NCBI GenBank assembly: GCA_020050835.1
Contig: JAGVKB010000142.1
Location: 186,001-250,000 of the forward strand
Source of the DNA: Candidatus Obscuribacterales bacterium
GTDB lineage: Bacteria; Cyanobacteriota; Vampirovibrionia; Obscuribacterales; Obscuribacteraceae
Direction: 5' to 3'
Length of the DNA stretch: 64,000 nt
Below, in pieces: positions 56,020 to 57,289 of this stretch. Under the pieces are notes generated by a model. The model worked only from the letters and a program-made list of their open reading frames with translations, had not been told where the DNA came from and searched no databases. How positions within the stretch are numbered: the stretch's first letter is position 1; every line of letters begins with the position of its first letter. Both the position numbers and the translations under genes were made by a program.

Positions 56020-56871
56020 CTATTCTCCACGAATCACGCAGATAGCGGTCGGGCGCTTGACTCTAAGTGCCATCGATTCATAGACACGAAAGCGATAATT
56101 CATATCGACCGGTCCGAGATAGGCTATTTGCAAGTCTTCCGCGACAGCAATATCGAAGTTTTGCACGCCGGTCGAGATGACGGCGGCTGTTCCCTCGGGA
56201 ATCTGCGGGCTCCACATAATGCCGTCGGCGAAGAGTTTGCCGAGTTGCTCGAGTTCGAGCGCGGGAGACTCTTTGACAGGCTTCAGCAGCGCTTCATACA
56301 TGTCGACTGAAGTGACCAACGCATACGGAAAATGATGATCGGCTTCCAACAGCTTGCTGATCGAAGCATAAACATCTTTCGCCGGAGCGCCTGCCGTCTT
56401 CCAATCACTGCGCTTAACGCTCAGCGAGCCTGGATAGTTGAGCAGTCCTTTCATCCCCAAAGTCTGGTTGCCGTTAAAAATCAACCGATCCTCTGCATCT
56501 CCGACCTGGTGCGCAGCGCGAACAGCATTGGTTGCATCGAGCGGAGCACCGATGTCTTGGCTCCATTTGACGTCACGCCAATGCAGTAGAAAATCTTTGT
56601 ATATAAGCGGAACCCGAATATAAGTTTCCTTCTCATGGGTCGTAATCGGCTTATTATCGGGGCGCCCTTCGAGATCGATCTCGGCCGGCTGATCTTCTTT
56701 AATTGTTTCCAGCGGAACACTTTCTACGCCAGCACCGAGCGGTCCGAACAAAGAGATGAGCTTGCGAGCAACTACCGTCCTGCGCACCTCATGAACAGCT
56801 GCCTGCAGCATCTGGTTGGACTGCTCCATTGTCAGCGGCAATTCACTTAGCTTTTGATAACTCTTCCACAC
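56020..56871 (-). CDS. Encapsulin nanocompartment shell protein (family 1)
   Basis: The 283 residues match the HK97-fold encapsulin/linocin family: RRTVVARKLISLFGPLGAGV, LEGRPDNKPITTHEKETYIR, VPLIYKDFLLHWRDVKWSQD, IGAPLDATNAVRAAHQVGDA with EDRLIFNG, and the C-terminal AICV strand. YKDFxxHWRD and GAPLDxxxAxxAA are the most telling. The start is GTG 56871 with AGGAGG at 56877-56882. The shell self-assembles and encloses cargo carrying a C-terminal loading peptide; the gene upstream codes such a cargo and ends 1 base away. Length is normal for family 1 shells. Confidence 0.95.
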   Translation of the reverse strand: MWKSYQKLSELPLTMEQSNQMLQAAVHEVRRTVVARKLISLFGPLGAGVESVPLETIKEDQPAEIDLEGRPDNKPITTHEKETYIRVPLIYKDFLLHWRDVKWSQDIGAPLDATNAVRAAHQVGDAEDRLIFNGNQTLGMKGLLNYPGSLSVKRSDWKTAGAPAKDVYASISKLLEADHHFPYALVTSVDMYEALLKPVKESPALELEQLGKLFADGIMWSPQIPEGTAAVISTGVQNFDIAVAEDLQIAYLGPVDMNYRFRVYESMALRVKRPTAICVIRGE

Positions 56872-56872
56872 A

Positions 56873-57289
56873 TTAGCCTCCTTGCGGCCACAACGGTCCT
56901 ACCGTCCATTGACTACTTTTACTTTCAATTGTTGATTCTTTCTGCGAACTCGGATATCCCTGATGAGCAGCCGGCGGCAATTCAGCTGCCCACTCGACAT
57001 GCTCTTCCATGAAATGGTCAAGAAGCTCGCGCTTCAATTCGAGCGACATGGCCTCTTCCTTCATCATCTTTTGGATGAAGAAGCTGTGGTCAAGTAGCTT
57101 TTGCGTGAGCGGTTGCGGCTGAGTGCTATGCAACTGCTGCAGTCTAGCTGTGTTCTCTTGCTCTTCAAGCAGCATATGCTGCTTCAATCTTTCGACTACT
57201 TCCGGTGCAGTGGACTCCTCTGCCAACAAACGAAAGAGCGTCTGAGTATGATCTGCGATGTTATGAAGGATGTCAGGAAGGTCTGTCAA
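56873..57289 (-). CDS. Encapsulin cargo: helical His/Glu-rich protein with loading peptide
   Basis: The 138 residues fold as a likely four-helix bundle rich in His and Glu: H9, H14, QHMLLEEQEN (H38, E42/E43), H54, LLDHSFF (H68), DHFMEEH (H92, E95/E96, H97). This resembles hemerythrin-like diiron proteins without proving that class. The tail SSQWTVGPLWP (126-136) resembles the TVGSL loading peptide of family 1 encapsulin cargo. Gene order (cargo then shell, one base apart) confirms the pairing. Expected job: oxygen, peroxide or iron handling inside the shell. Cargo of this type is less usual than DyP peroxidase or ferritin-like protein. Confidence 0.8.
   Translation of the reverse strand: MTDLPDILHNIADHTQTLFRLLAEESTAPEVVERLKQHMLLEEQENTARLQQLHSTQPQPLTQKLLDHSFFIQKMMKEEAMSLELKRELLDHFMEEHVEWAAELPPAAHQGYPSSQKESTIESKSSQWTVGPLWPQGG

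Follow-up and report, generated by a model that had tools for sequence, protein, structure and literature searches.

A tandem-hairpin protein as candidate encapsulin cargo in Obscuribacterales

The window (the whole 64,000-nucleotide stretch of DNA analysed, from a Candidatus Obscuribacterales bacterium) contains a two-gene operon which pairs a family 1 encapsulin shell gene with a gene for a small cargo protein. Compared with Pfam profiles, and with IMEF by PDB sequences only, the cargo appears to represent an undescribed encapsulin cargo family. We consider it fairly probable that it is a dedicated cargo: a bundle made of a duplicated helical hairpin, which is loaded through its WTVGPLW tail and binds metal (iron being the likeliest) within the shell.

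Operon organisation and distribution

Both genes lie on the minus strand, and a single base separates the stop codon of the cargo gene from the GTG of the shell gene (Table 1). A two-gene encapsulin operon with a 1-base gap and a 138-residue cargo gene had been described in an earlier note on this DNA; the coordinates and the shell profile scores agree with that description. With NF041155, the model for family 1 shells, the shell protein reaches 214.9 bits (cut-off 100), and with PF04454 it reaches 184 bits (cut-off 24.3). As is characteristic of a family 1 shell, it adjoins a cargo gene with a C-terminal loading peptide. Its nearest solved relatives are 6nj8 from Q. thermotolerans (the closest, at 207 bits), 9fy6 and M. 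xanthus EncA. By analogy with the family, the shell probably assembles into an icosahedral compartment. It is the single encapsulin found in the genome from which the window comes (7.0 Mb, 154 contigs searched).

Table 1. Features of the encapsulin operon (positions in the window)
Feature	Position	Strand	Basis
Family 1 encapsulin shell protein, 283 aa, GTG start at 56871	56020..56871	-	NF041155 and PF04454
Shell residue S40, equivalent of K. pneumoniae Asp38	56752..56754	-	Shell alignment
Cargo protein, 138 aa, TTG start at 57289, GGAG 7 nt upstream	56873..57289	-	Open reading frame, shell-adjacent homologues
AAGGAGG, shell ribosome-binding site within the last cargo codons (QGG)	56877..56883	-	CAA and GGA codons unchanged in 12/12
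Loading peptide WTVGPLW	56888..56908	-	Fixed in 12/12 tails, once per genome in 12/12
Flexible linker, residues 105-127, 23 aa	56909..56977	-	pLDDT <50 for residues 108-125
Cargo helical hairpin 2, residues 60-103, with H68, H92, E96, H97	56981..57112	-	AlphaFold2, repeat score
Cargo helical hairpin 1, residues 3-56, with H9, H14, H38, E42, E43	57122..57283	-	AlphaFold2, invariance

The 11 loci compared, with flanks reaching at most 3 kb, showed no further conserved operon partners, and the genes flanking the cargo-shell pair vary from genus to genus. A membrane protein gene near the operon (54934-55638) matched no Pfam family. Elsewhere in the window, two DAO-family FAD-dependent oxidoreductases are encoded about 3 kb apart on the plus strand (49481-50788 and 53884-54849). 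A BT1-family transporter gene (51641-52906, minus strand) is interrupted by a TAA stop in its reading frame (52556-52558). PF03092 is matched on either side of the stop in the same frame; this may be a broken gene, a sequencing error or a two-part protein.

Of the 194 genomes of the class that were searched, 14 have the cargo. When 382 genomes were searched with a profile, the same 14 came back, together with two weak partial matches (G403, E 0.006; G015, E 0.01); these cover 46 and 45 positions, respectively, and were treated as chance. The shell is found in 14 of the 50 genomes of the GTDB family to which the window genome belongs and is absent from 36. The 14 shell-bearing genomes are the 14 cargo-bearing genomes, and cargo and shell are always adjacent; the cargo gene is directly upstream of the shell gene in 12 and directly downstream in two (G080 and G135). 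A phylum-wide profile search (292 genomes) added two further homologues, both in another class (G204, E 1.9e-20; G220, E 3.2e-20) and both on contigs other than that of the shell. Among the 18 genomes of that class, only these two have the homologue. All 16 cargo-bearing genomes also have a shell. Searches for viral and plasmid relatives of the cargo found none.

In one genome (G139, contig C405; loci L013, L016 and L042), the cargo frame is broken mid-gene, with tail and shell intact; this is probably an assembly error of a fragmented draft genome. These loci were left out of alignment A1, yet counted in the table of tails. The near-identical loci L006, L007 and L008 were left out of alignment A2; these and L004 were left out of alignment A5, which holds 11 of the 15 homologues whose frame is intact. 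L027, which is cut by a contig end, is absent from the shell tree, and its pocket position is unreadable.

Cargo fold and conserved residues

AlphaFold2 predicts four cargo helices (residues 3-23, 29-56, 60-77 and 83-103) followed by a disordered tail. The pLDDT of the helices is mostly above 90, and block means in hairpin 1 are 85-97; the model of a distant homologue (L043) has the same four-helix layout. The two hairpins of the window protein align gaplessly to one another over 44 residues. The tandem-repeat score of this protein was reached by none of 500 shuffles, and by 0-3 of 500 across 13 members of the family. H14, H38 and E42 of hairpin 1 are in register with H68, H92 and E96 of hairpin 2.

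Residues H9, N10, H14, L35, H38, E42, E43, L50, H68, S69, L85, L90, H92, E95, E96, H97 and E99 (window numbering) are invariant in 11 homologues, down to 27% identity. The His, Asn and Glu residues of this set are possible metal ligands or neighbours of ligands. The HxxxE pairs (H38-E42 and H92-E96) and the HxxxxH pairs (H9-H14 and H92-H97) noticed earlier can be read in the translation.

A crude straight-helix model was derived from the limits and hydrophobic moments of the predicted helices, with no atomic coordinates. It brings each His/Glu set within 5-7 Å (C-beta) for one of the two handednesses, and places the two sets approximately 15 Å apart along the bundle axis. At that distance, two half-sites (single or cross-subunit) are favoured over one central diiron site; the model thus favours one His2Glu half-site per hairpin. 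The earlier note had proposed diiron chemistry in the shell, with structure prediction of the cargo as the check: the prediction did yield a four-helix bundle, but the separation of the two His/Glu triads in the crude model makes one central site the less likely arrangement.

Loading peptide

The window cargo ends in QWTVGPLWPQGG. The tail QWTVGPLW, which had been likened to the TVGSL loading peptide, was read where it had been reported, and homologues carry canonical peptides. The 12 cargos encoded upstream of their shells end in WTVGP[LM]W-x-Q-G-[GD], and the residues of WTVGPLW are fixed across these tails except for L to M in two. WTVGP..W is encoded exactly once in each of the 12 genomes, always in the cargo tail, and the reversed pattern used as a control was encoded in none. 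In the window, TVGP[L/M..]W occurs once, compared to no occurrence in 100 shuffles. As in other family 1 cargos, the peptide is terminal, has spaced hydrophobic anchors (V130 and L133) and is carried on a flexible linker. The Pro was previously taken for a variant of the loading peptide. A variant it is, but hardly a weak one-off: all 12 tails have it, and a shell pocket position has also changed. A literature search with the letters TVGPL gave no paper on encapsulins, judging by titles.

The end of the cargo gene also serves the shell gene. The QGG codons make up an AAGGAGG site which is 5 nt from the shell GTG in the window. In several relatives (L003-L010, L012 and L013), the cargo tail contains an ATG or TTG that is in frame with the shell and upstream of its GTG. 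A shell begun at that codon would be 15 residues longer; translation more probably starts at the GTG that follows the ribosome-binding site. Conservation of the tail could thus be a by-product, due solely to overlap with the shell ribosome-binding site or with an alternative shell start. The codons make this scarcely credible for the peptide. In the 12 tails, T, V, G and P are each encoded by three codons and the L position by five (W has one codon); synonymous variation with fixed residues indicates that WTVGPLW is selected as a peptide. Homologues which are downstream of the shell or apart from it also keep loading peptides. The CAA and GGA codons which follow WTVGP[LM]W are identical in all 12 tails, so QGG is selected as the shell ribosome-binding site. 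Overlap was therefore rejected as the cause of conservation for WTVGPLW and accepted for QGG.

The window linker is short and contains one His. The other 10 WTVGP[LM]W relatives that were aligned have linkers of 69-121 aa, rich in His and Gly, with 5-22 His in every case; the linkers of the two LSLGSLR homologues have none. The linker of L012 (1501-2208) has 121 residues, of which 22 are His.

Tails differ among the divergent homologues. Those of G080 and G135 (27-32% identity, beside the shell) end in LSLGSLR, a standard loading peptide. In the other class, the tail of the G204 homologue is TVGSLLG plus three residues and that of the G220 homologue is LTVGSLIGL. The shell-adjacent EncFtn cargos of the same two genomes have TVGSLLG and LTVGSMMG, respectively, at the same place; the seven tail residues of the G204 homologue are those of its genome's EncFtn cargo. 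Every tail read thus belongs to one of three kinds of loading peptide, or dialects: TVGSL[LI]G, LSLGSLR and WTVGP[LM]W. Judged by these sequences, the tandem-hairpin protein is a real encapsulin cargo with a C-terminal loading peptide.

Shell pocket

PMC10960027 describes how the K. pneumoniae encapsulin holds its cargo: Lys346 of the loading peptide pairs with shell Asp38, and Arg34 and Asp229 hold the peptide backbone. Asp38 was mostly dispensable in the test described there. The DyP peptide of that system, SGSLNIGSLK, resembles the window peptide in its hydrophobic anchors around Gly, and the equivalents of R34 and D229 are kept; it differs in that the window peptide has Pro for Ser and Trp for the basic residue, with Ser or Ala in place of shell Asp38 (PMC10960027 for the K. 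pneumoniae system). In the window shell, R36 and D246 were assigned by motif as the equivalents of R34 and D229, and no readable shell in the alignment has lost either.

The position equivalent to Asp38 is S or A in all 12 WTVGP[LM]W shells. It is D in the four readable shells (4/4) with a cargo peptide of GSL or GAL plus K or R (L020, L022, L024 and M. xanthus). In the five other shells, whose cargos lack a basic residue at that place of the peptide, it is H, H, H, P or E. The 12 WTVGP[LM]W shells form one clade with L024 as sister (shell tree, starred support), so few independent events lie behind this covariation of shell and tail. The covariation is a lead rather than proof, and it may mean less than it appears to, Asp38 being mostly dispensable.

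Two further observations were made on shells. The W220 region (DGIMWSP) has Trp in all 12 WTVGP[LM]W shells and Gln or Thr in other shells. In another Cyanobacteriota genome (L022), the gene after the shell (2338-3216 in shell orientation; L022:577-1452, minus strand) encodes a protein of 292 residues, which has two ferritin-like stretches (PF00210) and ends in SWTVGSLKE.

Relation to known families

No Pfam or NCBIfam profile matches the cargo above cut-off, nor does any PDB sequence match it meaningfully; membership of the hemerythrin or ferritin families, as suggested in the earlier note, is thus unsupported. None of 13 cargo members matches PF01814, PF00210 or PF22277 even at E<=10, and PF22277 has no match in L084, L085 and L043 at E<=1. 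IMEF was compared by PDB sequences only, and the solved IMEF cargo is absent from the matches at E<=10. Foldseek and VIA-align comparisons of both models reached no meaningful score with any family of natural metalloproteins; the best 50 matches listed in each of the four structure lists include no chain of hemerythrin, ferritin, EncFtn or IMEF. A designed diiron four-helix protein (2lfd) reached Z 10.3 (rmsd 3.8, 106 aligned) and Z 9.6 (rmsd 3.5, 107 aligned), both below significance; for helical bundles, a Z below about 13 is not significant.

Three other roles have to be weighed against that of a dedicated metal-binding cargo. The actinobacterial encapsulins have hemerythrin cargos, and a hemerythrin-like protein with a central diiron site of that type would bind O2 or NO. 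The predicted up-down-up-down bundle with short loops would suit such a protein, as would the two H...HxxxE sets, which we take to be the pattern of the hemerythrin HHE repeat. The profiles do not bear this out, and family membership was rejected on that evidence: besides the failure of all 13 members to match PF01814, hhalign with 23 hemerythrin sequences from the phylum aligned 15 columns with a probability of 0.8%. The ligand set is also a different one; helix C has no second His (I72 in the window), and the half-sites are some 15 Å apart in the crude model. A hemerythrin-like function is accordingly very doubtful. The cargo might instead be a non-enzymatic scaffold or filler, with His and Glu present for solubility or zinc-dependent assembly. 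It belongs to no known enzyme family, and the His-rich linkers of the 10 aligned relatives would be in keeping with such a role; however, the helical His and Glu residues are still invariant where the linker has one His (the window) or none (the LSLGSLR homologues). We regard this as doubtful too.

Descent from EncFtn (PF22277) is unlikely, if less so than these two readings. The cargo would then be two fused and altered hairpins, with the Glu/His ligands changed to His/Glu and ferroxidase centres at subunit interfaces. EncFtn is a helical hairpin with an HxxxEExE helix, and it is a cargo of shells in the same phylum: shells of the sister class carry it, and PF22277 is above cut-off in four of the four single-hairpin cargos tested. 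The window cargo is a tandem repeat, and its helix B resembles EncFtn helix 2 (HxxxEExE) in hhalign (27-30 columns, P 0.0048 and 0.0021). The resemblance is confined to helix B, though, and its hhalign probability is only 7-13%; the window cargo has two hairpins per chain and PF22277 is not matched at either threshold. The EncFtn metal ligands Glu32 and His65 fall on His14 and Asn46 of the window protein.

Proposed function

As a dedicated metal-binding cargo, the protein would work as follows. The shell protein would form an icosahedral compartment, and the four-helix cargo with its two hairpin copies would be tethered via the flexible linker to the inner shell wall by WTVGPLW. V130 and L133 would anchor the peptide, with Pro for the usual Ser and Trp for the usual basic or small residue. 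The His, His-x3-Glu set of each hairpin (H14/H38/E42 and H68/H92/E96) would be a metal half-site. Metal, most likely iron, would be bound and then oxidised or held inside the shell; either each half-site would hold metal by itself, or adjacent subunits would together complete a dinuclear site. EncFtn has a dinuclear metal site which is completed between subunits. According to PMC6668986, such a site is also found in the IMEF cargo of the T=4 encapsulin of Quasibacillus thermotolerans. The IMEF system and the window system both have a four-helix cargo and a TVG-L peptide, and neither cargo shows a ferroxidase motif recognisable from sequence alone. They differ in the tail (TVGSLIQ in IMEF, WTVGPLW in the window).

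A role in metal handling is likely, with iron as the first candidate, given the adjacency to the shell, the loading peptide, the invariant residues and the iron-related cargos that neighbouring shells carry. Within the shell, the protein would most likely oxidise or sequester metal (iron). The idea that the encapsulin replaces ferritin was rejected: ordinary ferritin (PF00210) is found in all 18 genomes tested, including the window genome (eight with encapsulin and ten without). The encapsulin would therefore not be the sole iron store, and it more probably has an additional, protective or specialised metal task than the role of main store.

It is also quite possible, if tentative, that the protein defines a new cargo class apart from EncFtn, IMEF, hemerythrin and bacterioferritin. 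Such a class would have two identical His2-Glu half-sites and inter-subunit metal centres. It would occur in Obscuribacterales and, as an unlinked second cargo, in the sister class, with the three peptide dialects in step with the shell pocket.

Significance

No paper on the encapsulins of non-photosynthetic Cyanobacteriota was found in the literature searched. With this protein, the encapsulin repertoire would gain a cargo type without known relatives. One cargo domain with three peptide dialects, each with its own shell, can be considered a natural experiment on loading specificity. The operon is also a pointer to metal handling in the non-photosynthetic Cyanobacteriota.
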